A stretch of DNA of 64,000 nucleotides from a virus. Both the position numbers and the translations under genes were made by a program. Of the stretch, positions 8,343 through 57,997 are shown piece after piece. Where the stretch lies: the IMG/VR virus record IMGVR_UViG_3300026256_000121, positions 1 to 64,000 of that record; one strand, 5' to 3'. The notes below the pieces were generated by a model that did no database searches, was not told where the DNA came from, and saw only the letters and a list, made by a program, of their open reading frames with translations. Position 1 is the first letter of the stretch; each line of letters opens with the position of its first letter.

Positions 8343-9042
8343 ATATAATTATTATTATAATAACGTCCCTGGAAAAGGATTATGTAGAAATAATTTAGTC
8401 TATACAAGCCTTATGAATGAGGATCAAACTGAGTTTATACAATGGTATTATAATGATACTGAATATCATAAAGGACATAATCAAGTAGTTGATCCTGTAT
8501 TAATGAATCAAAAATGGGAACGAGAACTTGTATTTTTACAGTTTATGGAAGTAGAAGCACCTAACTTAATTCCCAAAATTATTACTATTAATAATGAAGA
8601 ACGTAAAATTAAATTAGCAGTTGACGGCCCAGATTTTTGGGAACAATCAAGCTGTTCAGTAAATGGGTTTGATGAAACCTGTCCGGATTGGCAAGATCAA
8701 ATGTTAGATATTATTGCTAAACACGCCGAGCTTGGTCTTTATAAATTTAGTTTACACCCTAGTAGTTATTTTGTCGTAAATGGTATATTAAAAAGTATAA
8801 ATTATTTCTTTTGTTATTCAGAAGAAGAACCACAGATTGCTGTTAAAGATGTGTTAAGTCATATTAGCGAAGATAGGAAGCAAAAATTATTTCCTGCAAT
8901 GGCTAATTTGGGCATTAGCTTTGAACAGCCAGAGGAGTTTTTTAATTTGCAAATGTTATGTTTTGAAAGTTTTAGGGAAGATTATCCTAGAGAGTTTATA
9001 GAAGAAGCAAAGGAAATCTATGTGCGAGATAGCAGATTATGA
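8335..9042 (+). CDS. Kinase-fold-like protein (235 aa)
   Basis: The ATG at 8335 (MSKYNYYY), overlapping the previous stop, is preferred over an upstream ATG deep in the preceding gene. WERELVFLQFME then KIITINNEERKIKLAV resembles the N-lobe of small kinases, and LGLYKFSLHPSSYFVVNG resembles a degenerate catalytic loop. It shares this style with 4972-5550. Canonical catalytic residues are not clear, so it may be a pseudokinase or unrelated. Confidence 0.4.
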   Translation: MSKYNYYYNNVPGKGLCRNNLVYTSLMNEDQTEFIQWYYNDTEYHKGHNQVVDPVLMNQKWERELVFLQFMEVEAPNLIPKIITINNEERKIKLAVDGPDFWEQSSCSVNGFDETCPDWQDQMLDIIAKHAELGLYKFSLHPSSYFVVNGILKSINYFFCYSEEEPQIAVKDVLSHISEDRKQKLFPAMANLGISFEQPEEFFNLQMLCFESFREDYPREFIEEAKEIYVRDSRL

Positions 9043-9782
9043 GTTTTGAAACGAAGTTAAGAGTAATACATATATTAAATCATTTAGCAATTGTTCCCGC
9101 AATATATTATGGTGAATGGTGGATGTTTCTTGCGGCTCTAGGTTGGTGGAGCGTAATTGGTTGCGTTGGGATATCTGCAGGATTTCATAGATACTTGTCG
9201 CACAAGGCTTATAAAACACATCCTTGGTTTGAAAAGATAAGTTTATTTCTAGGATCTTTAGCGATGGGTGGATCACCATTAGCATGGGCAGGAGCTCATA
9301 GAATGCATCATGCATATACAGATAAAGAATTAGATCCTCACTCCCCAATACAAAAAGATTGGTGGAAAATATATATTCATTATTGGGGACGTATACAAGT
9401 AGATAAACGTTTTATTGCTGACTTACTAAAAAATAAAACAGTTATGTGGATTCATAGGCATTACTTTAGTATTATAACTTTCTGGGCATTAGGGTTAACA
9501 TTAATAGATCCTTTATTGCTTATCTTTGGATTTTGTATTCCTGCTGTATATGCCTTTCATGCATATGGTCAAATAAATGCTTGGTGTCATATGTTTGGAT
9601 ATCGTACATATAATACAAAAGATCATAGTTATAATAATTTTTTAGCAAATCTTATAACATGGGGTGAAGGGTGGCATAACAATCATCACAATAAACCAAC
9701 TAAATGGCAATTTGGCGAACGCTGGTGGGAGTTTGACCCAGCCGCAACTTTGATTAAGTTAGTAAAAAAGGATAAACTATGA
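9039..9782 (+). CDS. Delta-9-type fatty-acid desaturase
   Basis: Three histidine boxes are present in order: HRYLSH, HRMHH and HNNHH, which hold the di-iron centre of membrane acyl desaturases. Hydrophobic segments flank them (around residues 10-45 and 145-185). The length, 247 residues, is slightly short for the family. It would introduce a double bond into a membrane acyl chain, using electrons from a ferredoxin-type donor; a ferredoxin is encoded at 57656-57997. It overlaps both neighbouring genes by 4 bases. Confidence 0.9.
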   Translation: MSFETKLRVIHILNHLAIVPAIYYGEWWMFLAALGWWSVIGCVGISAGFHRYLSHKAYKTHPWFEKISLFLGSLAMGGSPLAWAGAHRMHHAYTDKELDPHSPIQKDWWKIYIHYWGRIQVDKRFIADLLKNKTVMWIHRHYFSIITFWALGLTLIDPLLLIFGFCIPAVYAFHAYGQINAWCHMFGYRTYNTKDHSYNNFLANLITWGEGWHNNHHNKPTKWQFGERWWEFDPAATLIKLVKKDKL

Positions 9783-10435
9783 CTTTAGCACCACTAACTG
9801 GGTCCTTCTTTATAATTCTAAGGGAAGGGTTCGAGGCGATGCTAATCGCTATGTTAATCTTTACCTATTTAAAGAAGTTCCACGCACAAGGTAAAGAGAA
9901 ATACGTATGGTACGGCATCATAAGTGGTATCGCACTATCAATAGTCATTGCAATGGGATTCAAATACATTGCTGGACTAACACACGAACACGAAGAATGG
10001 TTTGAAGGAGTCACAATGCTCACCGCGGCGGGTGTATTGGCATATCTGTCAATATGGTGCCACGGGGCCAAGAATCACTTTCAAGAGGATATACAGTCGA
10101 AACTCAAACCATTAGACAAAGAAATAACGCTTGGAGCAAGTTTGGCATTGTCTTTTGCCGTTTTTATTGCTATACTACGTGAAGGTTTTGAGATTGTATT
10201 ATTCTATGTGGCACTTATTTCATCTAGTGTAGACTCAGGCTTTGAGATACTTTTAGGTGGTGGACTTGGTGTTGCTGGTTTAATAGGTCTTTTTATTATA
10301 ATGCGAAAGAGTATGGATAAAGTTCCCACAGATACAATATTTCAATGCAGTAAATACCTGTTTATAATTGGGTCAATTTATTTTGCTTATTTAGGAGGCT
10401 CAGAAGTTTACGAACTATTAACTGAAACTCACTAA
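9779..10435 (+). CDS. FTR1-family iron permease
   Basis: Two REGFE motifs (ILREGFEAML near residue 14 and ILREGFEIVL near 129) are the hallmark iron-binding repeats of the FTR1/EfeU family. About six membrane segments can be read in 218 residues, slightly fewer than full-length members. The first ~350 bases look visibly richer in G and C than the neighbours, which suggests recent acquisition. Its oxygenase, desaturase and radical SAM neighbours all need iron, so iron supply to these enzymes is a reasonable inference. Confidence 0.85.
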   Translation: MTLAPLTGSFFIILREGFEAMLIAMLIFTYLKKFHAQGKEKYVWYGIISGIALSIVIAMGFKYIAGLTHEHEEWFEGVTMLTAAGVLAYLSIWCHGAKNHFQEDIQSKLKPLDKEITLGASLALSFAVFIAILREGFEIVLFYVALISSSVDSGFEILLGGGLGVAGLIGLFIIMRKSMDKVPTDTIFQCSKYLFIIGSIYFAYLGGSEVYELLTETH

Positions 10436-10804: not shown

Positions 10805-11887
10805 ATGAAAGATCGAGAAACATTAAGTTTATGTCATACGTGTTATAGACACATACCAGCTGACCGTGTTACTAAAGATAATGGAGTTTATCTTATTAAA
10901 ACGTGTCCCGAACATGGTCATATGGAAGAATGTATTGAAAAGGATGTTGAATTTTACAATAGTTTAATATATAATAGAGTTACTACTGGAAAGAATACTA
11001 TAGATGAAGATCATGATAGTAATTATGAAAATTGTATTTTATTTGAAGTAACTGATCGTTGTAATTTAGAATGTCCTCATTGTTATCTACAACCCGATAA
11101 TAAAATAATAGATAAATCTTTTGACCATATCTTTAAAATGATAACGGAGCAAACACGATCTACTATGGATACTGTATTCCTTTCAGGTGCTGAATGTACA
11201 GTACGTAAAGATTTACCTGAATTAATTAAAGCTATTACAGACAGAGGAAATGATGTTTGTATTATGACTAATGGTGTTAAACTTTCCAAAAGAAATTATG
11301 TTAAGTCACTTGTAGACGCTGGCCTTAAAATGGCTGTTCTAAGTTTAAACCATGAGTCTTATCAAGGTAAAGTAGTACATGGAAAGCAAGTAGCTGGTAT
11401 AGATATTTGTAATGAAGAAGGTATGTGTGTAGAGAAAATATTTTATACAGTAGAACATATAGACCAAGTAGACGATGTAATGGAAGAAATACAAGCTATG
11501 GGTCTAAAAAATCACCCAAGAACTGAATATAGAATTAGAGCTGGTTCAGATATAGGTAGAACTCCAGATGAACCTAGATTCTTTTTAAGTGATCACGTAA
11601 AACTTATAAAAAGTATTGCTGATAAAAAAGGATGGACTTGGGAGAAAATACCAGGAGACGATAATTTATATCATTATATGGTTAAGATTAACGGTCTTGT
11701 TCATAGAATTATTCAATGGTGTGATGCTAGAACTATTGATATGGAACAATTAAAATGTGGACCTTATGCTTATTTTGTTCCGGGAAAACCTGTAAGTAAC
11801 TTTTTACATCAAATCATCTTACGTGATGCACATATTAATAATGGGTTACCATTATTAGATACTGTACCTGATCGTTATATAGCTTAA
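10805..11887 (+). CDS. Radical SAM protein of MJ0619/Tes type
   Basis: The N-terminal domain (LCHTCYRHIPA, then IKTCPEHGH) is characteristic of the radical SAM group that includes the archaeal pterin methylase MJ0619 and tetraether lipid synthase Tes. The core motif CNLECPHC follows near residue 87, with SGAECT in the place of GGEPT. At 360 residues it is shorter than archaeal members. Being downstream of a desaturase makes a lipid substrate thinkable, and the deazaguanine/pterin enzymes elsewhere make a pterin thinkable; neither is shown. It ends overlapping the convergent tail-fibre gene by 4 bases. Confidence 0.7.
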   Translation: MKDRETLSLCHTCYRHIPADRVTKDNGVYLIKTCPEHGHMEECIEKDVEFYNSLIYNRVTTGKNTIDEDHDSNYENCILFEVTDRCNLECPHCYLQPDNKIIDKSFDHIFKMITEQTRSTMDTVFLSGAECTVRKDLPELIKAITDRGNDVCIMTNGVKLSKRNYVKSLVDAGLKMAVLSLNHESYQGKVVHGKQVAGIDICNEEGMCVEKIFYTVEHIDQVDDVMEEIQAMGLKNHPRTEYRIRAGSDIGRTPDEPRFFLSDHVKLIKSIADKKGWTWEKIPGDDNLYHYMVKINGLVHRIIQWCDARTIDMEQLKCGPYAYFVPGKPVSNFLHQIILRDAHINNGLPLLDTVPDRYIA

Positions 11888-37490: not shown

Positions 37491-38255
37491 TTATTGCCCG
37501 GCGTTAGCTTGTTTCATTAATAGTTTAAATTTAGAAAATAATTGAGGATCTTGCATCATCTTTTGAATGCTTTGTGTATAAGGTGCTATTGCTTTTATTA
37601 AATTAGGAGGTAATGTACTTCCTGAGGCAACTTTATCCATTCCTTTAGCAACCATACCGCCACTTGCTGAACCGCCAGCTACACTTTTTAGTGCTGTGGC
37701 TCTTTGTGCAACTTTTTGTGTTGCTTTTTGGTCTGGTTTTCCTGCTGGTTGTCCTGGTGGAATTTCTTGTGCTGGTGTTTGTGCTTGTTGTTGTTTAAAA
37801 CCTTGTGCCGCCTGTTGTGCTACACCTTTAACTTTATCAACACCTTGTCCAACTGCCGCGCCTGCCTGTTGTGCAATTGCTCCAACTCCGCCTGCGGCGT
37901 CAACAGCTTGTCCAACGGCTTTGGCTCCTTGAGCAATTCCACGTCCAGCCGCTTTGGCTCCTTGACCAGCCGCCTTAGCTCCTGCTTTAGCTCCTTTAAC
38001 AGCTAACTTACCAGCCGCCTTAGCTCCTGCTTTAGCTCCTTTAACAGCTAACTTGCCTCCAGCCTTTGCCGCTTTGGCTCCTACTTTACCAACACCTTTT
38101 GCTACTGCTCCTGCACCCTTCGCCGCCATTCTTCCTATGCCAGCAAGTGCAGGTAATATTTCATTTATTTCTTCGTCAGACATACCTTCAGTAATATAAC
38201 CATACTTCTTCCCAAAATTGATTAGAGCATCTCTTTCAAATTGATGAAATCTCAT
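37491..38255 (-). CDS. Ala/Lys/Gly-rich histone-like protein, candidate internal head protein
   Basis: After an amphipathic N-terminus (MRFHQFERDALINFGKKYG) comes ITEG, which fits the T4 prohead-protease rule (I/L-x-E before A/G). The middle is a long Ala/Lys/Gly repeat similar to histone H1 tails, with a perfect 15-residue tandem repeat. The C-terminal ~60 residues look folded. Packaging inside the head and binding of DNA are inferred. Confidence 0.6.
   Translation of the reverse strand: MRFHQFERDALINFGKKYGYITEGMSDEEINEILPALAGIGRMAAKGAGAVAKGVGKVGAKAAKAGGKLAVKGAKAGAKAAGKLAVKGAKAGAKAAGQGAKAAGRGIAQGAKAVGQAVDAAGGVGAIAQQAGAAVGQGVDKVKGVAQQAAQGFKQQQAQTPAQEIPPGQPAGKPDQKATQKVAQRATALKSVAGGSASGGMVAKGMDKVASGSTLPPNLIKAIAPYTQSIQKMMQDPQLFSKFKLLMKQANAGQ
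37965..38054 (-). repeat. Perfect tandem duplication of 45 bp
   Basis: Positions 37965-38009 and 38010-38054 are identical and adjacent. Each encodes KLAVKGAKAGAKAAG in the histone-like protein, and the length keeps the frame. Confidence 0.9.
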
Positions 38256-38366
38256 TTACTTTTTCCAGAATTTAAATTTAGTAAGAAGTTCTTGCAAGTC
38301 TTCAAATTTTTCGTTTATATACCAACCTGCTACGAATCCTATAATAAAGCCAATTGTTAAAAACAT
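38256..38366 (-). CDS. Small membrane peptide (36 aa)
   Basis: ATG at 38366; the sequence is MFLTIGFIIGFVAGWYINEK followed by a charged helix ending FWKK. One membrane segment is clear. The ATG lies 2 bases before the stop of the upstream 96-residue gene and the stop is 3 bases ahead of the next start. Function unknown. Confidence 0.55.
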   Translation of the reverse strand: MFLTIGFIIGFVAGWYINEKFEDLQELLTKFKFWKK

Positions 38367-38657
38367 CTAGCCCTCCAGCTTTTTAAGTTGTTTTTGTAAT
38401 ATTAGTATTTGTTTTTTTAATAATGCGTTTTGTTTTTCTAAATCAACTTCTTTTGTCTTATCATCTTTAGGCTCTGCGGCTTTGCCAGTCCAGCCTGCTT
38501 TTGTTGGTCCTGCTATATCAGTACCAGTAGCTGGTTCTACAGTCATATCTCTTCCAGAGGCTTTACCGAGGCCTTTATTAAATTTATCAAACCCAGCTCC
38601 TGCACCTTTTTTAAAAGCGTCCCAGCCCGGTCCTTCAATAAGATCTCTAATTTTCAT
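38367..38657 (-). CDS. Candidate internal head protein (96 aa)
   Basis: The N-terminus MKIRDLIEGPGWDAFKKGAG has LIE before G, a match to the T4 gp21 cleavage rule after a short amphipathic leader. A Gly/Lys-rich region and a C-terminal coiled coil (LLKKQILILQKQLKKLE) follow. It overlaps the upstream gene by 11 bases. Function unknown. Confidence 0.5.
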   Translation of the reverse strand: MKIRDLIEGPGWDAFKKGAGAGFDKFNKGLGKASGRDMTVEPATGTDIAGPTKAGWTGKAAEPKDDKTKEVDLEKQNALLKKQILILQKQLKKLEG

Positions 38658-39603
38658 TTTTTTTCGCTTCTAATTTAGTTTGTAGTTGGTCTTTATATGT
38701 TTCGTTTTTAACCCTATCTACATAGTGAGAACTCATCTTACCATAACCGTGTCTCCACGCCATTTGTTTTAGAGTTTTTTCATCTTTACCTTTAAAATGA
38801 CTTGCTAATTCTTTGTCAGACATGTCAGCGTATTTCTGTTTGTTCTTAATAACGCTTGTTGGCATTCCACCTTCGTTAGTTCTTTTTAAAACTTTTTGTA
38901 CATCTGGATGGCTTGATAACCCTTTTGCAAGTTTTTCAATAGCCTTAACTGCACCTGAATAGTTACCTTGTTTGTATCTAGGGTCATTTGCAATTCCGTA
39001 TGCTTGTTTGATTTGTTGTGAAGTAAACTTAGTTTCTTCTTTAACTTTTTTCTTTTTATGAGTTTTACCACAACTTTCACAGATTTCTTTACCACAGCTA
39101 CAATTACATGTAGACTCTGATACTTCGTCAAATTTTGTTTGGTAATCTAAATGATGGAAAACAGTACCAAGATAGTCAGATGCTTTAGTAATTTTAGCTG
39201 ATACCCAACCGTCTAATCCTTCTGCTTCACTCATACCTTTAAGCATGTCATGAAGTTTAATAGAATATTTTGCGGCTTTATATAACTCGCCTCTAGCGAG
39301 TTGGATTTCATGATCTTGCTCAACTTTATGAGCTAAGTCACCTAAGTTTTCTTGAACTTCTTCTTTATCTTCTACTGGTTTTAATGTTTCTTTAACTACA
39401 TCAAAACTAGTTGGTACTTTACCTGTCATTCTCTTTAAAATTCCACGGCCAACTTCTTTTGGATCCTTACCTGCTGGTACATTAACTATAATAGAGTTAG
39501 GCACCTCACCACCAGTATTTGGTGGCATTTTAATATTTTTTATTCTAACAACCATATCCTCTTCTAATTCAACTTCTTGTTTTATAATTTCTTTTTCTCG
39601 CAT
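38647..39603 (-). CDS. Virion-associated candidate with Cys-rich segment and shared helical module
   Basis: The ATG at 39603 has AAGGAT upstream and is preferred over a longer frame to 39645. A cysteine-rich stretch (CNCSCGKEICESCGKTH) precedes a ~50-residue module (YGIANDPRYKQGNYSGAVKA, then LSSHPDVQKVLKR) that also occurs in the 770-residue neighbour. The rest is charged and helical. Zinc binding is likely; its function is unknown. Confidence 0.55.
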   Translation of the reverse strand: MREKEIIKQEVELEEDMVVRIKNIKMPPNTGGEVPNSIIVNVPAGKDPKEVGRGILKRMTGKVPTSFDVVKETLKPVEDKEEVQENLGDLAHKVEQDHEIQLARGELYKAAKYSIKLHDMLKGMSEAEGLDGWVSAKITKASDYLGTVFHHLDYQTKFDEVSESTCNCSCGKEICESCGKTHKKKKVKEETKFTSQQIKQAYGIANDPRYKQGNYSGAVKAIEKLAKGLSSHPDVQKVLKRTNEGGMPTSVIKNKQKYADMSDKELASHFKGKDEKTLKQMAWRHGYGKMSSHYVDRVKNETYKDQLQTKLEAKKNEN

Positions 39604-39622
39604 AGTATTATCCTTACTGTAT

Positions 39623-41935
39623 TTAGCGTTTAACTGCGCCGCCACCCATTAAATTATTACTCATGTCTAATGCATTTACGGCTGTACCATCAGCCTTCTT
39701 TTTTTGTGGTGCCTTAGGAGCTCCAAATTTACCTTTTTTTGCAGGTTTATGTTTAGCAATTACAGGATTAGCCACAGTTGCGATATTGCCTGCACTTGTT
39801 GATCCAGCTGTAGCTGTTTCGCCTATTTCTTTCATACCATCATATATTTGTGATTCATAATTTTCAGCGTTTTCTTTATCATAATTAACTTTCCACGTTG
39901 CTAATTCTCTATATCTACGTCTTACTTCATCAGCAAGTTCCGGATCGCTTTTCATATAGCGTTCTAAACTATAAAGAGTTTTCATTTTTTCTCTATAGTC
40001 TTCTAAATCTGTAACGCCAAATTTTTCTTCAGACATAAATGCTTCCTTTTTATCTTTTGATAATGTTTTTGCTTCTTCTTCATCATCGTCATCATATTCA
40101 CGTCCTGGAACATTTGTTAGATCACGTGCGGCAGTACCAAATTCTTTTTCATCATCATCTGTCCAGTCGTCATCTTCTGGATCTCTATTACTAGGATGAT
40201 CTGGCCAATTCATTTCATCATTTGATGGATCAATACGTCCCCAATATTGGTGTTCGCTTGAGTAGTCTTTAGTTGAATCATAAAATTCGTGGTCTTGAAC
40301 TCTATCACTATTTTTGCCATCTAGCCATTTATCAAATGCTTCGTCATAATTTTTTGCAGGTACTTTATAGATGTGCATTTCTGTTGGTGTATCAGTAATC
40401 ATATGCGTACCTTCTGCATCGGCATCATAATCATCTGGATCTAACCAGTTACGTCCGATCGGATTTGATTTGTGCCACATTGATGAATATGCTTTATGCG
40501 ATTTTGAATCAAGATCTTCGTTTGCTCTTTTTAATGCGTTAGCAACGTCTGGATGTTTTGATAATCCTTTTTTAAGTTTTTCAATAGTATTTGATGCTCC
40601 AGTGTAATTGCCATCTTTATATCTTTTATCAAAAGCAATACCTTTTGCTTGTTTAATTTCTTTATCAGTTGGTTTTTCTTTATCTTCTTTAATTGCATTA
40701 CAATCACAATGAGGACAATCTGGTGGACAATGACATTCGCTAACTGGCACACCACAACAGGCTTCAGGACACATTTTTTCTTTTGCTTCACCTATATCCC
40801 ATGGATGTTTCCAATCACGTCTTTTAGTAGCTTTACCTAATGCATCTGTAGGATGTTCAAGATCTAGTTCATCGCGGTTCATATACTTTGTGTCACCGTT
40901 TTGAAATTCTACTTTATATACTCCAGCTTTAGGATCAGCTTGTATTATTTTTACTCTACGTCCTTTAATTGTTCTTACAACTGTTCCAACTCGATCGTCA
41001 ATAAATTCTTTAATGCTTTCGCCGTTTGATCTTGTTTTATATACGTTATGTATTTTGTCAATTGCGTCTGGCCAACCGTCTACAATAACTCTTGCCATGC
41101 TTTCAGCTTTGAACTTATCTCCATCTAATACGTGTTGAGCCATTTCTAACCCATAGCCTAAATGAGCTTGGGCGACTCCTAAAAGTCTTGCTGGAGCATT
41201 TTCATCACTTTCGTCTTGTATATCTTCTTGTGGTTGTGCTTCGGGGTCGTCTTCATCTTGTATATAGTCATAAAGTTTTTTACCACCGTATAAGATTGCA
41301 ATAATTGCCGTTGCCGGTAACGCCCATTTTACTGCCACTTGTGCAAGTGCTTTGATAGTTTCATTATCAAGCATATCACCTACAAGTTCTTTGATGTGAT
41401 CAAATAATTCATCTACTTCAGTATAAATTTTTGCACCTACGCCTAATATTGTAGCTTTAATAGGATGTTTAAGAATTTGTTTTCCTACGCCTTTTGCTAC
41501 ACTTCCAGCACCTTTGGCAATCTTTGGTGCTACTTTTATTGCACCTTTACCTGCCGCTTCTGCACCTTTTTGAATAAGTGGTTTGGCATTTTTTGCTATA
41601 TTAGCCGCCGCACCTGCTCCGCTCTGAGCTCCTTTTTTAATTATTTCTTTTGCACCCTTTTTTCCAAGGAATCTAAGCACATGAGGAGCACCTATTCTAA
41701 CAGCGGTTGCTAATGCTGGTATTAATAATGGTAAGAAAGCAAGTTCAGTTAAGTGCTGAACATCTTCATTTGTGAATTCGTCTTTGTATTTTGCTTTGCG
41801 TGGAATTTCTTTAGTTTTATCACCATGAGATCCAGCGGCACCACTCTTTTTAAGATCTTGCATTTGTTTCCAGTTAGGATCGCGGGGTTTTACTACTCTG
41901 CCATCCTTGTATTTTTTAAGCTCGTTAAATCTCAT
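39623..41935 (-). CDS. Large multidomain candidate internal/virion protein (770 aa)
   Basis: N-terminus MRFNELKKYKDGRVV is followed near residue 64 by LTELAFLPLL (LTE could be a prohead-protease site), an Ala/Lys/Gly-rich region resembling the histone-like protein, and a hydrophobic segment (WALPATAIIAILYGG). A cysteine/histidine cluster (CPEACCGVPVSECHCPPDC) precedes the module shared with 38647-39603. The C-terminal part is acidic and low in complexity. A late-type box lies 19 bases upstream. Function unknown. Confidence 0.6.
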   Translation of the reverse strand: MRFNELKKYKDGRVVKPRDPNWKQMQDLKKSGAAGSHGDKTKEIPRKAKYKDEFTNEDVQHLTELAFLPLLIPALATAVRIGAPHVLRFLGKKGAKEIIKKGAQSGAGAAANIAKNAKPLIQKGAEAAGKGAIKVAPKIAKGAGSVAKGVGKQILKHPIKATILGVGAKIYTEVDELFDHIKELVGDMLDNETIKALAQVAVKWALPATAIIAILYGGKKLYDYIQDEDDPEAQPQEDIQDESDENAPARLLGVAQAHLGYGLEMAQHVLDGDKFKAESMARVIVDGWPDAIDKIHNVYKTRSNGESIKEFIDDRVGTVVRTIKGRRVKIIQADPKAGVYKVEFQNGDTKYMNRDELDLEHPTDALGKATKRRDWKHPWDIGEAKEKMCPEACCGVPVSECHCPPDCPHCDCNAIKEDKEKPTDKEIKQAKGIAFDKRYKDGNYTGASNTIEKLKKGLSKHPDVANALKRANEDLDSKSHKAYSSMWHKSNPIGRNWLDPDDYDADAEGTHMITDTPTEMHIYKVPAKNYDEAFDKWLDGKNSDRVQDHEFYDSTKDYSSEHQYWGRIDPSNDEMNWPDHPSNRDPEDDDWTDDDEKEFGTAARDLTNVPGREYDDDDEEEAKTLSKDKKEAFMSEEKFGVTDLEDYREKMKTLYSLERYMKSDPELADEVRRRYRELATWKVNYDKENAENYESQIYDGMKEIGETATAGSTSAGNIATVANPVIAKHKPAKKGKFGAPKAPQKKKADGTAVNALDMSNNLMGGGAVKR

Positions 41936-41953
41936 AGTTTTTCCTAGCTTTAG

Positions 41954-41961
41954 TATTTATG
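41954..41961 (-). promoter_or_regulatory. T4-late-like promoter box CATAAATA
   Basis: On the minus strand the box lies 19 bases before the ATG of the 770-residue gene and overlaps the stop codon of the gene upstream. Confidence 0.5.
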
Positions 41962-43447
41962 CTTTTGCTAGTTTCGTAGCTGTAGCATACATAACTGCTT
42001 TAGCGTCATCACCATAGCGTTTTGCGAAGCCTTTTTTGTCTTTTTTCATACCTTTAACAATACGTTCTTTGTCTTTTTCTTGACCTTTTGTAAGCTCACG
42101 CTCTGTAGCTGGATTTCGTCCTTTTCTAGCCAACTGTCTTGGAGAATTATCTATATCATGTATAGTATAATTTTTACCGTCCCAATCAACATCCTGTCCT
42201 GACAGGAGTTCGTAAATTTTCTTTAGTAATTTTGGGTCGTATTCTGATTTGCCATATCCTTTTTGTGGCTGTCTAACTTTATCAGCAACAAAGTCTTTAA
42301 AATCGCTGTATTTCATTTTTAAATCACCTTCAATAATAGTAGATTCTTTAAAATGTTGTTGTAAGTTTTTAGCAGTTCTTTCAAACTTATGGTCTTTATG
42401 TTTAAAGCCCACTCCACCAGCACCTTCCCATTTAGCAACATTTTGCCCAAAGTCATCAATTAAGATGTTTGGTGTTCCATCTTTTTGTACAGCATATTGT
42501 TTTTTATTAGTTGTAATAATAACATCATCGGGTGGAAATGCTTTTAAATTCTTTTGCACCCATTCTCTTTTACTAGGCTCAACTCTATGATCGTCTGCCA
42601 TCGGTGCAGAAAGAATTATGTAACTTCCTTTAATTTGTTTAATAATGCCTAATAGATTATCGGCATTAGATGTTGGTTTTAGTTTAGTCCAAAAGTCTGG
42701 AGTATTTCTAATTTTATCAAGTCCTACATTTACATTCGAAATGTCTTTCCAAGTTTTAACTCCCATTAATTTAGTCCAAGCACTAAAGAAATCTACAAGT
42801 ACTCCATCCATGTCTACATAAATTTTGCTGTTACTTGATAAACCTTTAGCTTCTTTTTCTTGTAGGTTATCTGGAACATCAAATTGCCATACTTTACCCT
42901 TACCAGTTGTTCTTATTGCCGCGGTAAGTCTTGTATTACCACCTACAAGCTCTAACCATCCATCACTATAACTTGCAACAATAGGTAATTCAATTTTACC
43001 TGTTTGTAATTGTTGTACTACTCTTTTTTTCCGTACAGGATCTATTTTATCCCAATCTTTTACGTTACCAGCTTCAGTATTTTTAATCTTTTTAACTGTT
43101 TCAGCATCATAGTCTACTACTTTACCTTTTTTAGCAAGAGCAATCCATTTATCTTTACCTATATTTTTAAATTCCTTGTAACGTTTTGCTTCGCCCCATT
43201 CATTATCAAAGTTAGGGTCAGTATATGCAATAGAGTTTTTTGATTCTGACATTCCTAAATTAAAAAGTGTATTAGGGTTAGTATTTTTGTATGCTTTATC
43301 GTGCATAAAGTAGCCAGGACGGCCATCTTTGTCAACTTTGTTTCCGAATTTAGCGGCTTGTTTTTTAATTTCGTCAGGGCCTACGTCAGATGTTTGATTC
43401 TGCTTTGTAATTCTGCCGACACCTTCGTATAACTGACGTAATTTCAT
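41957..43447 (-). CDS. ParB-like / HAD nucleotidase fusion, candidate internal head protein (496 aa)
   Basis: The ATG at 43447 overlaps the previous stop (TAATG); a TTG 12 bases earlier is less likely. The N-terminus MKLRQLYEGVG has LYE before G, a prohead-protease-like site. Residues ~130-200 resemble a ParB-like fold (ASYSDGWLELVGGNTRLTAA), and residues ~205-370 a HAD 5'(3')-nucleotidase (IYVDMDGVLVDFFSAW, NILIDDFGQNVAKWEGAGG). The C-terminus (KRYGDDAKAVMYATATKLA) is a tail I recall from many marine phage proteins. Confidence 0.65.
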   Translation of the reverse strand: MKLRQLYEGVGRITKQNQTSDVGPDEIKKQAAKFGNKVDKDGRPGYFMHDKAYKNTNPNTLFNLGMSESKNSIAYTDPNFDNEWGEAKRYKEFKNIGKDKWIALAKKGKVVDYDAETVKKIKNTEAGNVKDWDKIDPVRKKRVVQQLQTGKIELPIVASYSDGWLELVGGNTRLTAAIRTTGKGKVWQFDVPDNLQEKEAKGLSSNSKIYVDMDGVLVDFFSAWTKLMGVKTWKDISNVNVGLDKIRNTPDFWTKLKPTSNADNLLGIIKQIKGSYIILSAPMADDHRVEPSKREWVQKNLKAFPPDDVIITTNKKQYAVQKDGTPNILIDDFGQNVAKWEGAGGVGFKHKDHKFERTAKNLQQHFKESTIIEGDLKMKYSDFKDFVADKVRQPQKGYGKSEYDPKLLKKIYELLSGQDVDWDGKNYTIHDIDNSPRQLARKGRNPATERELTKGQEKDKERIVKGMKKDKKGFAKRYGDDAKAVMYATATKLAKA

Positions 43448-44049
43448 TATGCCGCCCAAACATGAGTTGCACCACGTTGTTTTCCAATACGTGCAATTTT
43501 ATTCATCATCATTATTACTTCATTAAAGTAACCTTCACGTTTGCCGCCACCAATCATTGTAGCACCGCCGCCACTTTTATCTACTGTAGTAGGTTCCTCT
43601 GCTGAACGTTTGCCTATATGTCGTTTTAACCATTGAGTAGTGAATGCAATGAACTCGTCTATAGGGACATTAGAGTCCGGATCTCCAAATCCAAGCTCGT
43701 CAAACACTTCACGCATATTTGAATTAGACAAATTTAAATCTAGTTCTGGATCGTAATCAGGATTTTCAGGTGGTTCTTCATCACCATACATATACTTGTC
43801 TGAATTTTTATAAAAGTCATCACCATAACGGCTTCCTGAATCAGTATCGCTAGTCCAGTAACCTTTTTCTTTGTCTTTATGACCTGCGGCAAAGCTCATA
43901 CTTTCATTAGCTTTATTATTGCCTTTGTTTTTAAAGTCAAATCTGTTATTTGGACCAATACCTTTTTTATGTATTAAACCTTGTGGCTTAATTGTTTGAG
44001 GCATTATTATCCATTCTTGTTTGTAACCTAAAACTTCAGTTATTTTCAT
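43447..44049 (-). CDS. Protein of unknown function (200 aa), head-block member
   Basis: Starts MKITEVLGYKQEW, resembling the other short amphipathic N-termini in this block. The middle is charged and Asp/Asn-rich, and the C-terminal third is helical with EVIMMMNKIARIGKQRG. It overlaps both neighbours by one or four bases. Function unknown. Confidence 0.5.
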   Translation of the reverse strand: MKITEVLGYKQEWIIMPQTIKPQGLIHKKGIGPNNRFDFKNKGNNKANESMSFAAGHKDKEKGYWTSDTDSGSRYGDDFYKNSDKYMYGDEEPPENPDYDPELDLNLSNSNMREVFDELGFGDPDSNVPIDEFIAFTTQWLKRHIGKRSAEEPTTVDKSGGGATMIGGGKREGYFNEVIMMMNKIARIGKQRGATHVWAA

Positions 44050-44264
44050 TTTTTACGCCCCCTAAATGGTACGTTACTTGCAACCATGAAAGGTCTACTA
44101 AACCAAAGTTTGAACCAATCTTCTGTACCTGGTTTAATACCTTGTTCTTTTTCTTTTTTCTTTAATGCCGCGGCAGTTATACTAGGATTCTCGTCTATTT
44201 TGTATTCAGAGTATCCTTGAAACTCGTTAACCCCTGCTAATTGTTTTAATCTTTCTATATCCAT
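44046..44264 (-). CDS. Small phage protein (72 aa) with MDIERLKQLAG start
   Basis: MDIERLKQLAGVNEFQ is an N-terminus I recall from small marine phage proteins; it resembles a packaging leader, but no clear cleavage site follows. The C-terminus is basic (FRGRKK). It overlaps the next gene by 4 bases (ATGA). Confidence 0.5.
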   Translation of the reverse strand: MDIERLKQLAGVNEFQGYSEYKIDENPSITAAALKKKEKEQGIKPGTEDWFKLWFSRPFMVASNVPFRGRKK

Positions 44265-44265
44265 T

Positions 44266-44439
44266 TTACTTTTTATCTATTCCACAATATTTACTTGCTT
44301 CGTCTACTTTGCCCATGCTAATTTTATGAAATGTTTTCATAATGTTTTTATGCTTTACGTTATTCGGACATGAACATTGCCATTGATACATCGCTTCGCA
44401 TTTTACACAATATCTAGACTTTAGTTTACTGATTAGAAT
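44266..44439 (-). CDS. Candidate small zinc-ribbon ORF with non-ATG start
   Basis: The frame fills the gap between 44264 and the gene upstream. It encodes SRYCVKCEAMYQWQCSCPNN and a basic helical tail with a further Cys near the end. AAGGAG lies just before, but only ATT (44439) or ATC (44433) are available as full-length starts; the first ATG would lose the CxxC. The cysteine pattern makes it worth listing. Confidence 0.4.
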   Translation of the reverse strand: MLISKLKSRYCVKCEAMYQWQCSCPNNVKHKNIMKTFHKISMGKVDEASKYCGIDKK

Positions 44440-45442
44440 CTCCTTCTATTCGGGTTACGTTACTTGCGTCAAAGATTAATAAACCTTCAACAGCTTTATC
44501 ACTAACTACTCCATCATATCCTGCTTCTTTTAAGTCCATTGTTAGTATTGCTGAGTACATTTTATCTCCAGTATACTCCCAAGGTTTAAGTCCCATTTTT
44601 GCTTTGATATCTGCTACTTCGTCGCTTTGATAATCAGCTATTTTTAACCCTGGCTTTACTTTATACTTAACAATCTCACCATCAGCACCATGATGTATTG
44701 AAAATGCATTCGCGGCAGACTCAGTCCATGTAAGATAAACTCCTCTACCTAATGCACCTAGTCCTAAACCTTTGCCCCCTTTACCTTCTCCTCGGTAAAA
44801 TACGCCGTCTTCTTTCTTATATAAATGTGGATAAAAATCTGCTTCTGATTCTATTACTTGTATAGCTTCGCCTTGTATTCCTAATCCAGCACGAACTTTA
44901 TTGTATAACATTTTTCCTACTTTAGGATCTTTGCTACAAACACCAGATCTAAATGATTCAATGTCTCCGTCAACTGCCGCTTGTTTCATTTTACTAGCAC
45001 TCATACCTTCAGCACCTTCGGCATCTGGATCTCGTTGTCCTGCACTTATAACATTTATGGAATTAAATTGATAATCATCGCCACCGTTGTATTTGTTTAG
45101 TAATGTATCAAAAGATTCTACACGATCGTCACCAGCTACGTAGATAAGATCAGTATATTTTCTACTGTAAAGAAATTTGCAACAATCAATAATAGTTCTA
45201 ACACTATCATGCCCGATAGTAATTCCATTGCCGAAACATTTACGAGCAAAAAAAACTTTTTCTGCAAATGATAAAGGATCTGTTTTAGGTTTTTGTGTAT
45301 GACTTAAAAATAGGAAAGGATCGCCTGGCTGACTTGTAATTACATCAACTAATTTAGCGTGTCCAATTGTAGGAGGATTCATTCGCCCGAAGGCAAATAC
45401 AGCCGTTTTCCCGTCAGCTTCAGTAAGTTGTCGTAAGAGCAT
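44426..45442 (-). CDS. NMN-adenylyltransferase-like / ADP-ribosyltransferase-like fusion
   Basis: Residues ~10-200: AFGRMNPPTIGHAKLV is the HxGH nucleotidyltransferase motif and GMSASKMKQAA the C-terminal substrate motif, as in NMN adenylyltransferases. Residues ~205-338: VFYRGEGKGGKGLGLGALG, GRGVYLTWTESAANAF and AGYDGVVSDKAVEGLLIFD match ADP-ribosyltransferase (ART) folds. The N-terminus MLLRQLTEADG has LTE before A, like a prohead-protease site; T4 Alt is an ART with such a leader. A packaged, injected NAD-active protein is inferred. Confidence 0.65.
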   Translation of the reverse strand: MLLRQLTEADGKTAVFAFGRMNPPTIGHAKLVDVITSQPGDPFLFLSHTQKPKTDPLSFAEKVFFARKCFGNGITIGHDSVRTIIDCCKFLYSRKYTDLIYVAGDDRVESFDTLLNKYNGGDDYQFNSINVISAGQRDPDAEGAEGMSASKMKQAAVDGDIESFRSGVCSKDPKVGKMLYNKVRAGLGIQGEAIQVIESEADFYPHLYKKEDGVFYRGEGKGGKGLGLGALGRGVYLTWTESAANAFSIHHGADGEIVKYKVKPGLKIADYQSDEVADIKAKMGLKPWEYTGDKMYSAILTMDLKEAGYDGVVSDKAVEGLLIFDASNVTRIEGDSNQ

Positions 45443-45786
45443 TAATAATCACCTTTTTCAATTAGCTCCATTTCTTCGCCATAGATTTTTTCAATTAACG
45501 CATCAATTTCTTCGCTTTGCATCAAATCCTCTGGACGTTTAGGAATACTATATTTTGCACAATAGTGATTAATACCTTTGTTTACCATAGGCAATATTGC
45601 CTTTTTTGTATCAATTGGATTGCCTTGTTTTAGACGATCTTGCATATTAGCAATAGTTGGATAATACTGTTTACGATAAAACATAGGGTCGTTCTTCATA
45701 TGGACATGAAGGTCACTTACAACATCAAACCCTAAGTTAGGTTTGCTTTCATCGTTATGATCATCTATAAATTCATTAATTTTCAT
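45442..45786 (-). CDS. Protein of unknown function (114 aa), head-block member
   Basis: Starts MKINEFIDDHNDESK, in the style of the other leaders. The rest is helical (VDALIEKIYGEEMELIEKGD-like C-terminus, shortened here). It shares one base with the NMNAT-ART gene and follows the Cys-rich peptide by 2 bases, so all three are co-transcribed from 45923-45930. Confidence 0.45.
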   Translation of the reverse strand: MKINEFIDDHNDESKPNLGFDVVSDLHVHMKNDPMFYRKQYYPTIANMQDRLKQGNPIDTKKAILPMVNKGINHYCAKYSIPKRPEDLMQSEEIDALIEKIYGEEMELIEKGDY

Positions 45787-45788
45787 AG

Positions 45789-45899
45789 TTATTCTTCTTC
45801 TTCTGTTCTAGTACAGCATTCGCAACGCATTGTTGCAGTACACTCACAGGGATCGCAAGTACATTTTTTGTCCTTGCATTGGTCATTATTACAAGCCAT
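45789..45899 (-). CDS. Cysteine-rich metallothionein-like peptide (36 aa)
   Basis: Nine of 36 residues are cysteine: positions 3, 8, 13, 15, 18, 20, 26, 28 and 29, with CTCDPCEC and CECC clusters, and a Glu-rich tail. ATAGGAGG lies 7 bases before the ATG, and a late-type box (45923-45930) precedes it. The arrangement resembles metallothioneins, which bind zinc or copper in thiolate clusters. It is the first gene of the NMNAT-ART operon. Confidence 0.65.
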   Translation of the reverse strand: MACNNDQCKDKKCTCDPCECTATMRCECCTRTEEEE

Positions 45900-45922
45900 G
45901 ATGAAACCTCCTATGTATAGAG

Positions 45923-45930
45923 TATTTATC
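45923..45930 (-). promoter_or_regulatory. T4-late-like promoter box GATAAATA
   Basis: GATAAATA on the minus strand, 24 bases before the Cys-rich peptide ATG, followed by TATACATAGGAGG. Confidence 0.6.
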
Positions 45931-45941
45931 AGACTTTAAGG

Positions 45942-46211
45942 CTAGACAGAAATTTCGATATCGAAGTGATTATAACCTAAATCAAATAGTTTATGAGCAA
46001 TACGCTCAGCTACTACAGTAGATTCAGAATCTTTGAGGTTTTTGTGTGTTTCTACAGTTAATATAACGCCACCTTGTTCAGTTTCACCTATTTCGTAATT
46101 TGTTTCATCTTCAAGTAATGCTTCGTCGGCACATTCGAGGATTGAATCAACTACAACCTCGTCTACATCTTCTGGTTTCTTTTCCCATACTATATTAATA
46201 AAGTGCTTCAT
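45942..46211 (-). CDS. Protein of unknown function (89 aa), acidic
   Basis: An acidic alpha/beta-looking protein: EDVDEVVVDSILECADEALL and GGVILTVETHKNLKDSEST. It follows the structural gene 46221-46562 by 9 bases. Not recognised. Confidence 0.45.
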   Translation of the reverse strand: MKHFINIVWEKKPEDVDEVVVDSILECADEALLEDETNYEIGETEQGGVILTVETHKNLKDSESTVVAERIAHKLFDLGYNHFDIEISV

Positions 46212-47252: not shown

Positions 47253-49499
47253 TCAATGGACGGTTGCTTTCACGTCCTTGGTATTAGTATTTAAGACAAA
47301 TTCTTCGTCTTTTACATCAATTGTTACAATTCCGCCTGCTTTTAATTCACCGAATAATAATAGTCTAGATAAAGGACGTTTAATGTCGTTATCAATAACA
47401 CGTTGTAAAGGTCTTGCACCCATTTTCTTATTAAACCCTTTATCTACTAATACATCAATAGCTTCGTCGGAAATAGTAATGTCAACATTTTTATCAGTTA
47501 ACATTTTCTTTAACTCTACTAAAAACTTACCAACTATTTTTATCATAGTATTTTTATCTAGTTTATCAAAAGTTATAACACCATCTAATCTATTTCTAAA
47601 TTCTGGCGGAAAAAATTTCTTAAGTTCAGTATCTTCAAATTCGCCTTCGTCATTTCCAAAGCCAATTAATGACCTTTCTGATTCTGCGGCTCCTAAGTTA
47701 GTTGTTAGAATTAAAACAATATTTCTACAATCAGCAGTTTTACCATTACTACCTGTTATAAATCCATTGTCCATTATTTGCAATAGTAACGAGCTAACAT
47801 CTGGATGTGATTTTTCAATTTCGTCTAGTAGTAAAACACAATTAGGAGTTTCCTGTAATGCAGTTATAAGCATTCCAGCATTTTCTTCAAATCCTACGTA
47901 TCCTGGAGGCGAACCAATTAGTTTAGAAACAGAGTGCTTCTCTTGATACTCTGACATGTCAAATCTAATAAGTTTTACACCAAGTTGTTTAGCAAGTTGT
48001 CTTGCAGTTTCTGTTTTACCTATGCCTGTTGGACCCATAAACACAAAAGAACCAATTGGTTTACGTTCTTCTTTAAGTCCTGCTTGTGCAACTAGTATTT
48101 TATCAACTACGTTTGTAATAGCATCATCTTGACCATAAATTTCACCTTTAAGGTTCTTTTCTAAATTAGCAAGATTACTAGTTTCTTTTTCCTTAATTTG
48201 TTCTTCAGGAAGATTAACCATTTTTGCTAATTCAAATTGAATTTCTTCTTCATTTATAACTCTATCTTCAGGATCGTTAAGGTTAAACCTAGAACAAGCA
48301 CAATCAAGTAAGTCAATAGCTTTATCAGGTAATTTTTTATCTGTTTGGTACTTAACACTTAATTTAATAGCCGCATCAACAGCCTCTTCTGTAATAGTAG
48401 TATTGTGAAATTCTTCATAGTATTTCTTAATGCCAAGTAAAATATCTTTTGCAACTTCTTTGCTAGGTTCATCGATTGTAACTCTAGCAAACCTACGCAT
48501 TAATGCTCTGTCATTTTCAAAATATTTACGGTATTCTTCCCATGTAGTAGATGCAACTACTTTAATATTGCCTTTAGTTAATATAGGTTTTAGCATATTT
48601 GCAAGATCGTTTGAACTACTACTACCTGCCGCACCTGCTCCGCTTATCATATGTGCTTCGTCGATAAACATAATAGTCTTTCCACGTTTCTTTAATGCAG
48701 ATATTACAAGTTTAAATCGTTCTTCAAAATCACCTCTATACTTACTACCAGCTAACATAGATCCTATGTCTAAGTTATAAACATTATACTCTTGTAGGAA
48801 CTTTGGACATTCTTTCTTGACAATTTTCCAAGCAAGTCCTTCTGCAATAGCAGTTTTACCTACACCAGGATCACCTACAAGTAAACAATTATTTTTAGTT
48901 CTACGTCCAAGGGCTAATGCAATAGTATCCAACTCATCACGTCTACCAACTACAGGATCAATTTTTCCTGAGTCAACTTCTTGATTTAAATTAGTAGTAA
49001 ATGAACGTAATGCCCTACTAGCCAGGCCTTGTGTTTCTTCATCTTCATATGTTGCTTCTAGTTCATTATTTAAATAATCTGAAAATTTAGTTTTGTCGAT
49101 ATTTGCTTTAGAAATATGAAAATATGCCCAAGTTTTTTGTTCATTCATCATACTAAGGAATACATCTGCTATTTCAATTAATTGACGTCCACTAAACAGT
49201 ACCTGAGTAAATGCTCTATTAAGAACACGTTCAACAGCGTGTGTTTTTTTAGGTTTGTATTTTTTACCTTGGACTTCAACAGTTTCAATTGATGTTAAAT
49301 TATTTTTTAGATAATGCTCAATATTCTTTTTAATTAGTTCATGATCAGTGCCAAATCCTTCTAAGATTTTTGAGAAACTTTCTTCACAAAGCATAGCAAA
49401 GAGTAAATGCTCTATAGTTACATACTCGTGTTTTAGCTTTTTCGAAACCTCAACAGCCTTATCAAAAACTAATTGTAATTTTTCGCTTGGTTCAACCAT
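47253..49499 (-). CDS. clpA: ClpA-like AAA+ unfoldase
   Basis: The Clp N-domain (TIEHLLFAMLCEESF) is followed by two AAA+ modules: GDPGVGKTAIAEG at residues 208-220 and GPTGIGKTETARQ near 490. The length of 748 matches E. coli ClpA (758). SLIGFG in the second module sits where the ClpP-binding IGL/IGF loop lies, so it probably docks on host ClpP. No clpP was seen here. It overlaps the deformylase gene by one base. It probably directs host or phage proteins to degradation. Confidence 0.92.
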   Translation of the reverse strand: MVEPSEKLQLVFDKAVEVSKKLKHEYVTIEHLLFAMLCEESFSKILEGFGTDHELIKKNIEHYLKNNLTSIETVEVQGKKYKPKKTHAVERVLNRAFTQVLFSGRQLIEIADVFLSMMNEQKTWAYFHISKANIDKTKFSDYLNNELEATYEDEETQGLASRALRSFTTNLNQEVDSGKIDPVVGRRDELDTIALALGRRTKNNCLLVGDPGVGKTAIAEGLAWKIVKKECPKFLQEYNVYNLDIGSMLAGSKYRGDFEERFKLVISALKKRGKTIMFIDEAHMISGAGAAGSSSSNDLANMLKPILTKGNIKVVASTTWEEYRKYFENDRALMRRFARVTIDEPSKEVAKDILLGIKKYYEEFHNTTITEEAVDAAIKLSVKYQTDKKLPDKAIDLLDCACSRFNLNDPEDRVINEEEIQFELAKMVNLPEEQIKEKETSNLANLEKNLKGEIYGQDDAITNVVDKILVAQAGLKEERKPIGSFVFMGPTGIGKTETARQLAKQLGVKLIRFDMSEYQEKHSVSKLIGSPPGYVGFEENAGMLITALQETPNCVLLLDEIEKSHPDVSSLLLQIMDNGFITGSNGKTADCRNIVLILTTNLGAAESERSLIGFGNDEGEFEDTELKKFFPPEFRNRLDGVITFDKLDKNTMIKIVGKFLVELKKMLTDKNVDITISDEAIDVLVDKGFNKKMGARPLQRVIDNDIKRPLSRLLLFGELKAGGIVTIDVKDEEFVLNTNTKDVKATVH

Positions 49500-50035
49500 T
49501 AAATGACCCTTCTTTTATGTAATTGATCGTATTTTTTTATATACTTGCTTCTTTTCTTTCTAGCCATTTCTAGTCTAAGTTTACTTACTCTATCAATAAA
49601 ATTAATTCCGTATAGGTGATCGTATTCATGCCCAAAGATTCTAGCATTCCAACCTGTTAACTCTATTGTACACTCTTTTCCTGCAATGTCAAGACAGTCT
49701 ACAACCAATCCGTATGGTCTTTTTACTTTTATATATAAAAAAGGAAAACTTAAACATCCTTCTTCGCCTATAAGTGTTTCTTGTGATACATGAGTAATTT
49801 TAGGATTAATTATAGCAAATCCTTTATTATCTTCATATCCTTTTAAGTCTGTAGGCTTTATAACAAATATTTGTGCATCAAGTTCTACTTGATTAGCCGA
49901 TAATCCAATACCTTGCTCTTTATCCATGATTTCTACCATTTCCTTTTCAATAGAAGGTGCATCATGTTCATCAAAATTAAAAGGCTTTACAGTTTTTTCT
50001 AACCAATCATTTGGTGCGTGAATTAATTTCATCAT
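49499..50035 (-). CDS. def: Peptide deformylase
   Basis: All three motifs are present: GIGLSANQV (motif 1), EEGCLSFP (motif 2, metal Cys) and GHEYDHLYG (HExxH-type motif 3). It removes the formyl group from nascent proteins. Marine phages often carry short deformylases; this one (178 residues) is close to bacterial length. It overlaps dnaJ by 29 bases. Confidence 0.95.
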   Translation of the reverse strand: MMKLIHAPNDWLEKTVKPFNFDEHDAPSIEKEMVEIMDKEQGIGLSANQVELDAQIFVIKPTDLKGYEDNKGFAIINPKITHVSQETLIGEEGCLSFPFLYIKVKRPYGLVVDCLDIAGKECTIELTGWNARIFGHEYDHLYGINFIDRVSKLRLEMARKKRSKYIKKYDQLHKRRVI

Positions 50036-50903
50036 TTATTTTTCTTATTTTTTCTCTTATTATTTCGTTATCAACTTTTGGTGTTACAGCATTAATTTTA
50101 ATAAAAAGTGCGCCGGTTTGCCCACTCCTGTGATCTGGCAATCCTTGTTCGTGTATACTAAAAGTTGTTCCTGCATTTGCTCCTGCTGGTACTGTTACAT
50201 TTAAAGTTTTACCATGAATAGTATCAATTGTTATATTAGTACCTAAGATAAGATCTAGTACACTAACATTTTTATTTACATATAAATTAATTCCATCTAC
50301 ATCATATATGGCATGTTTTCTTACACGTATTTTAACATGAAGATCCCCCGGTTGTCTACCTGGAGCATACTCATTTGCACCCATTCCGGGAAAATTTACT
50401 ATGTCACCGTTTCTAATACCTCGAGGTATATCAATATTAACTGTTTGTTCTGAACCGTTAGCTGTTCTAAATGTTGCAATTAAACTTTTACCATTTACAA
50501 TATCTTCTAACTCAAGATCTGCGGCTATTGTTATATTTTGATTTCGTTGATGTGCTCGTTGGCCAGGACCAAAGCCGTTTCCAAAAAATGGTTCACCTTG
50601 TCCAAAGAAAGAATTAAATATATCTTCTACATTTATATTTCCGTTAGGGCCTCTAGTATGAAAATGATATTCTTGCTGGCGAGGACGATGTTGATGTGGA
50701 TGTGGATCAGTACTACCAAATTGATCATACATCTGCTTTTTTTGAGGGTCTTTTAATGTATCGTATGCTTCGTTGATTTTTTTAAATTGTTCTTCTGACC
50801 CGCCACGATCGGGGTGATGAGTCATTGCTTTCTTTTTAAAAGCTTCTTTTAAATCACTTTTACTTGCGTTACGGTTAACACCTAGTATGTCGTAGAAATT
50901 CAT
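50007..50903 (-). CDS. dnaJ: DnaJ/CbpA-type Hsp40 co-chaperone
   Basis: The J domain covers residues ~1-65 with THHPDRGG (HPD). A Gly/Phe-poor linker (PHPHQHRPRQQEYHFHTRGP) and two beta-rich CTD domains follow (ADLELEDIVNGKSLIA, NVTVPAGANAGT). The CxxCxGxG zinc repeats are absent, as in CbpA. It would stimulate host DnaK; together with ClpA and Def it forms a proteostasis cluster. Confidence 0.92.
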   Translation of the reverse strand: MNFYDILGVNRNASKSDLKEAFKKKAMTHHPDRGGSEEQFKKINEAYDTLKDPQKKQMYDQFGSTDPHPHQHRPRQQEYHFHTRGPNGNINVEDIFNSFFGQGEPFFGNGFGPGQRAHQRNQNITIAADLELEDIVNGKSLIATFRTANGSEQTVNIDIPRGIRNGDIVNFPGMGANEYAPGRQPGDLHVKIRVRKHAIYDVDGINLYVNKNVSVLDLILGTNITIDTIHGKTLNVTVPAGANAGTTFSIHEQGLPDHRSGQTGALFIKINAVTPKVDNEIIREKIRKINDEINSRTK

Positions 50904-57655: not shown

Positions 57656-57997
57656 TTAATCTCCTTTGCCTGGAGCTTCATTAAAGTATTTCATTTTTCC
57701 TTTTACGCCTTCCCAGTCTTTAACATCAGCTGGTACGTCTTCTTCTCGTTTTTGCGTAATGTTAGGCCATATATTAGCATATTCTTGATTTAACTTTAAC
57801 CACTTATTATCTTCATCCATATTATCTGTAATAATTGCGTCTGCAGGACATTCTGGTTCGCATACACCACAATCAATACATTCATCAGGATGTATGACCA
57901 ACATATTTTCTCCCTCATAAAAACAGTCTACAGGACAAACTTCAACACAATCCATATGCTTACAGTTAATACAGTCATCATTTACAAGGTATGTCAT
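57656..57997 (-). CDS. 7Fe-type ferredoxin
   Basis: [18 protein letters not shown] and [12 protein letters not shown] give two iron-sulfur sites, a 3Fe-4S and a 4Fe-4S, as in FdxA-type ferredoxins with a ~50-residue C-terminal extension. The length of 113 matches alphaproteobacterial members. It may carry electrons to the desaturase or the radical SAM enzymes of this phage. Confidence 0.93.

Follow-up and report, generated by a model that had tools for sequence, protein, structure and literature searches.

An ORF in a 64,000-nucleotide stretch of viral DNA (the window, in what follows) encodes a 36-residue peptide with nine cysteines, and the locus raises the question of whether so short a frame is a gene and, if so, what a phage might use its product for. 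The original prediction, of nine cysteines in 36 residues, was correct for the minus strand, on which the ORF reads MACNNDQCKDKKCTCDPCECTATMRCECCTRTEEEE, a peptide without Phe, Trp, Tyr or His; the plus-strand reading of the same positions does not give this peptide. The expression signals are listed in Table 1. Nine [TG]ATAAATA sites occur in the window and seven of them are 13–36 nt upstream of a start, that of the peptide gene included (it was added to the tally after the 70-aa cut-off of the script had omitted it); calling the upstream element a late promoter is therefore reasonable in a T4-like phage. Chance would not be expected to give such an ORF: 60 first-order Markov simulations of the window produced a single one of comparable shortness and Cys content (mean, 0.017 per window), compared with one in the real window.

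Table 1. Positions in the window of the peptide gene, its signals and other features discussed in the text
Feature	Position	Strand	Remarks
Fatty acid desaturase gene	9039–9782		flanks the FTR1 gene
FTR1-family iron permease gene	9779–10435	plus	PF03239, E 1.4e-26
Radical SAM gene	10805–11887		flanks the FTR1 gene
Genes opening with similar motifs	37491–45786	minus	several genes
NMNAT-like cytidylyltransferase protein	44426–45442	minus	phrog_3041, E 2.5e-49; first called NMNAT-ART
114-aa protein	45442–45786	minus	no assigned function; starts 2 nt after peptide stop
Nine-cysteine metallothionein-like peptide gene, 36 aa	45789–45899	minus	runs from 45899 down; ATG start; C-x4-C-x4-C-x-C-x2-C-x-C-x5-C-x-CC
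Shine-Dalgarno site AGGAGG	45907–45912	minus	7 nt before peptide ATG
Late-type promoter, GATAAATA(CTC) / GATAAATACTC	45923–45930	minus	31 nt upstream of peptide ATG
89-aa protein	45942–46211	minus	upstream of peptide gene; flank common to relatives without peptide gene
ClpA-like ATPase	47253–49499	minus	from search
Peptide deformylase	49499–50035	minus	from search
DnaJ-like protein	50007–50903	minus	by reading only
Spanin-like gene set	51.6–52.9 kb		
Ferredoxin-like protein (Fer4, DUF3470)	57656–57997	minus	

Searches with the 114-aa and NMNAT-like proteins retrieved syntenic IMG/VR contigs. In six of these (L002–L006 and L018) the peptide gene stands just before the 114-aa gene and the spacing of all nine cysteines is identical to that in the window, so that both a homologous ORF in related phages and conserved Cys spacing, the two checks named with the original prediction, were found. 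AGGAGG or AGGAG also precedes the peptide in L002–L006, and the late-type promoter is kept in syntenic relatives, including two without the peptide gene (ATAAATACT). Pairs of syntenic peptides gave pN values of 0.04–0.19 and pS values of 0.31–0.90, with a dN/dS of 0.06–0.22 (about 0.1) in the unsaturated pairs, and the peptide is thus under purifying selection. In two contigs, L012 and L017, the 114-aa gene comes immediately after the same upstream gene and promoter; because these contigs share the promoter and flanking genes without the peptide gene, the latter is a discrete cistron. The ribosome site, the promoter, the dN/dS values and the homologues demonstrated that the nine-cysteine ORF is a genuine late-type gene, as had been proposed.

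Co-transcription with the NMNAT-like gene, proposed at the same time, is plausible given the tight gene spacing, but it would run through the intervening 114-aa gene. The stop of this gene overlaps the start of the NMNAT-like gene, and no terminator-like site was found on the coding strand between the peptide gene and the NMNAT-like gene. All full-length NMNAT-ART-type loci with the upstream side present had the peptide and none of the loci with the NMNAT part alone did, a co-occurrence that may only reflect one clade. Upstream of the peptide gene, the genes for the ClpA-like ATPase, peptide deformylase and DnaJ-like protein form a proteostasis block. Downstream, several genes open with a similar motif (MKIRDLIEG, MRFNELKKY, MKLRQLYEG, MKITEVLGY, MLLRQLTEA and MKINEFIDD), possibly a capsid-targeting peptide of injected proteins by analogy with those on T4 Alt and the T4 internal proteins. 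The window also carries a ferredoxin-like protein and an FTR1 gene, the latter absent from seven other phage records, a 199.8-kb relative (G001) among them.

A degenerate DNA pattern for the core CTCDPCEC was matched in at least 119 IMG/VR contigs, and every match listed lies inside a short Cys-rich ORF, most with a Shine-Dalgarno site. A second, independent pattern that describes the N-terminus only (M-C-N-N-E-x-C-x4-C, with no core residues) gave at least 120 IMG/VR matches; among those listed, 58 of 58 distinct ORFs are evident family members, some with the variant cores CTCEPCTC, CTCGSSCKC, CNCESCEC and CTCENCQC. Most members matched by the N-terminal pattern alone share the C-x-C-x2-C-x-C motif, from which a few depart (CTCGSSCKC). 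Family peptides have 20–50 residues, mostly 27–38, and MCNNEHCDCENCTCDPCECTDKSPCGCE is a natural example of 28. In the branch with core CTCENCQC (L215, L220, L223, L224, L246 and L277), most members carry TAATGCTGCTGCTGCT ahead of the start codon (L220 differs), and the start codon of these members may be misplaced. No family in Pfam, NCBIfam or PHROGs matches the nine-cysteine peptide. Profile search found no member in any of nine phage records from GenBank (HTVC008M, Melnitz, P-SSM4, S-CAM9, P-TIM68, S-RIM32, ACG-2014f, C48C1 and AG-345-A17), tblastn with two family peptides found no match in GenBank phages (a weak sign of absence, since parts of the queries were perhaps masked as low complexity), and blastn of the gene gave weak matches only, at E 0.04 or worse. 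No description of a phage or viral metallothionein was found in open-access PMC. The earlier view that such peptides are unusual in phages holds for these GenBank records but not for marine virus contigs: the family is large, unannotated and abundant in uncultured marine phages. T4-type gp23 or gp20 was present in 6 of the 19 large contigs searched, which makes T4-like phages at least a main carrier group; neither gene is in the window fragment, and we infer that its phage is T4-like from the relative G001 and from gene content.

The CTCDPCEC core pattern is rare in bacteria and archaea (18 GTDB contigs, from 84,980 genomes), and one of these contigs, L184, holds a phage peptide within a MAG. 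Nine-cysteine peptides in Verrucomicrobiota and Defluviitaleaceae also resemble the phage family. Two from Verrucomicrobiota (L192 and L195) have its exact spacing, C-x4-C-x-C-x2-CTCDPCEC-x5-C-x-C, and L191 has one additional residue ahead of the last CxC. The family profile was matched in 1 of 288 sampled Verrucomicrobiota genomes; no metal genes were evident around L191 or L192, and the bacterial neighbourhoods gave no functional clue. Micropeptides with CxCDPCEC repeats (e.g. KCDNPNCTCDPCECDPCEC) occur in SAR202/Chloroflexi (L180, L182, L185, L189, L196 and L197), SAR86 (L194) and Vampirovibrio (L188 and L193) and are a possible host-side relative of the phage family.

Across the family, cysteine number is conserved and cysteine position is not. 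Nine cysteines are reached by three layouts: C-x4-C-x-C-x2-C-x-C-x2-C-x-C-x5-C-x-C; the window type, which lacks the second CxC and ends in CC; and the EKCCEC type, in which the first Cys is missing and an adjacent Cys pair is present. The terminal CC and the extra Cys that forms the second CxC all but exclude each other (unique peptides, 65/1/22/13), and the p-value for this carries no correction for descent. Exactly nine cysteines were counted in 79% of dereplicated viral peptides (n = 52, <80% identity) compared with 35 ± 6% expected from column shuffling, none of 5000 shuffles reaching the observed value (maximum, 58%). At <60% identity (n = 21) the corresponding values were 76% and 31 ± 10%, again with none of 5000 reaching the observed value (maximum, 71%); column shuffling leaves some shared descent in, and the result still stands for these 21 distant peptides. 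Some clear members depart from nine, with 7, 8 or 10 cysteines. A constant nine with moving positions is most simply read as a ligand count set by one metal-thiolate cluster, which suggests that cysteine number is selected as cluster ligands. Nine is also the number of cysteines in the beta domain of mammalian metallothionein, with its Zn3Cys9 stoichiometry (PMC10243857).

The original term metallothionein-like fits both the composition and this conserved count, with metal binding as a prediction. We lean slightly toward the reading that the peptide is a late-expressed, phage-encoded miniature metallothionein that would buffer zinc or copper in the infected cell. Its nine thiolates quite probably form a metal-thiolate cluster, folding round a single one, the simplest candidate being the M3Cys9 type of the mammalian beta domain, that would acquire Zn(II) or Cu(I) in the cytoplasm of the host. 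The chances are about even that the late-made peptide serves in cellular metal buffering; it would then buffer or sequester metal that host breakdown releases or misplaces, and so protect metal-sensitive proteins needed for phage production. Counting against this reading are the few members with 7, 8 or 10 cysteines, the small number of contig clusters with Fe-S neighbours, the mostly coil structure model, and the lack of a Foldseek match or of a significant match to any metallothionein family.

The neighbours of the peptide gene vary by lineage, and members occur in at least six phage contexts, in which some genes were confirmed by profile search and others assigned by reading. The gene is found after two A-type Fe-S carriers and iscU (the second carrier by reading); flanked by an NMNAT-like and a staphylococcal-nuclease gene, iscU lying farther along; with Hsp20 on one side and an M15-type endolysin on the other, ahead of a T4-like DNA polymerase (by reading); adjoining a putative neck-type structural gene (by reading); beside a spanin-like gene set, which the window also has; and, as in the window, before the 114-aa and NMNAT-like genes. 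The suggestion that the peptide delivers zinc to Cys-rich virion proteins found no support here: the neighbours differ from lineage to lineage, and no connection with such a protein was noticed.

Single-linkage clustering placed 196 carrier contigs in 28 clusters, and iscU lies within 2.5 kb of the peptide gene in only two; an A-type carrier is near it in one, and a glutaredoxin-like gene stands at some of these loci. No NifU_N gene was found in the 74-kb record of the window or in G001. IscU was dropped as a general partner on the basis of the two clusters and its absence from G001, and the Fe-S association is suggestive but not general in the family. Both iscU and A-type carrier/erpA genes are established in marine phages (PMC5332604, PMC9038755); the main text of PMC5332604 uses neither of the words metallothionein and cysteine-rich. 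Phage C48C1 has a NifU-like gene with no peptide gene nearby, and a match labelled Acinetobacter phage (MD-2021a) was rejected as being apparently from a bacterial isc operon. Zinc poisons IscU, IscA and ferredoxin (PMC6495748), and in the two iscU-linked clusters the protected proteins would be the Fe-S assembly proteins; such protection in some lineages is a tentative, rather unlikely reading of the gene neighbourhoods. Similarly speculative is the wider proposal that a new phage metallothionein family guards late-infection metalloproteome assembly, some lineages partnering it with IscU/A-type carriers so that Zn or Cu is kept off the Fe-S scaffold. If this were true, phages of the metal-poor ocean would have a function devoted to metal buffering.

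We considered four other explanations. The peptide could be a small zinc-finger-like protein in which zinc, instead of being buffered, holds a surface that recognizes some protein of the host or the phage, for instance in anti-defence or takeover. Residues conserved beyond what metal binding needs (the NN[ED] N-terminus and the T, DP and E of the core) fit such a surface, as does presence or absence at one site, in the manner of accessory genes; however, nine is not a multiple of four, cysteine positions shift while the total is constant, and the peptide is acidic and variable outside the conserved residues, and we regard this as doubtful. A redox or thiol role, in which the peptide buffers thiols or carries persulfide/sulfur (perhaps for phage IscU/A-type carriers) and metals are incidental, is improbable. 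The iscU, A-type carrier and glutaredoxin-like neighbours described above, in a setting where iscU and erpA are known phage genes, agree with this, but most contig clusters have no iscU nearby, the relative of the window has none at all, and carrying sulfur takes one or two reactive thiols, not a constant nine. Polycysteine uORF attenuators are described in mycobacteria, and the peptide, as first cistron after the promoter and 2 nt before the next start, is placed as a Cys-rich leader of the 114-aa gene would be. This is very unlikely, since the protein is under purifying selection with Cys spacing and DP/NN residues conserved, the family precedes unrelated genes in many contexts rather than being linked to one downstream gene, and L012 and L017 have the same operon without the peptide. 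A chance ORF, suggested by its shortness and the lack of a database family, is refuted by the homologues, dN/dS, Shine-Dalgarno sites and Markov simulation together, and its probability is negligible.

If the peptides do bind metal, as the metallothionein reading has it, T4-like marine phages would commonly buffer metal, a function so far overlooked, through genes of ∼27–38 codons that escape protein-family libraries. From the constant number of cysteines one would predict that each peptide binds about three divalent ions; the window peptide is short enough for chemical synthesis.

AlphaFold2 on the family alignment gave mostly coil with a C-terminal helix (mean pLDDT 77.7, pTM 0.39), and Foldseek found no structural match. 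Against the PDB, the sole match of the family profile was the metallothionein 1m0j, at a non-significant E of 0.22, which is a lead and not homology. The peptide had no significant match to metallothionein families and no profile match to PF02069 (Metallothio_Pro), a profile that gives its expected match in a control, Synechococcus elongatus; by these searches, the phage peptide is not a member of this bacterial family. Like the bacterial SmtA and BmtA of PF02069, it is small and Cys-rich with a C-x-C-x2-C-x-C motif, CTCDPCEC in the window peptide and CACEPCLC in SmtA. Unlike them, it has no His ligands and no counterpart of the GATA-type zinc-finger fold of SmtA (PMC10612145). The phage Fe-S assembly genes (iscU and A-type carrier/erpA) are neighbours in two contig clusters and have no homology to it. 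The beta domain (Zn3Cys9) of mammalian and fish metallothioneins likewise has nine Cys in ∼30 residues with CxC spacing; the beta domain is lysine-rich, whereas the phage peptide is acidic between its cysteines, and the 1m0j comparison gave no evidence of common descent with the vertebrate domain. In the terms by which metallothioneins are broadly defined, the window peptide is small, has >20% Cys in CxC/CxxC arrangements and has few aromatics.
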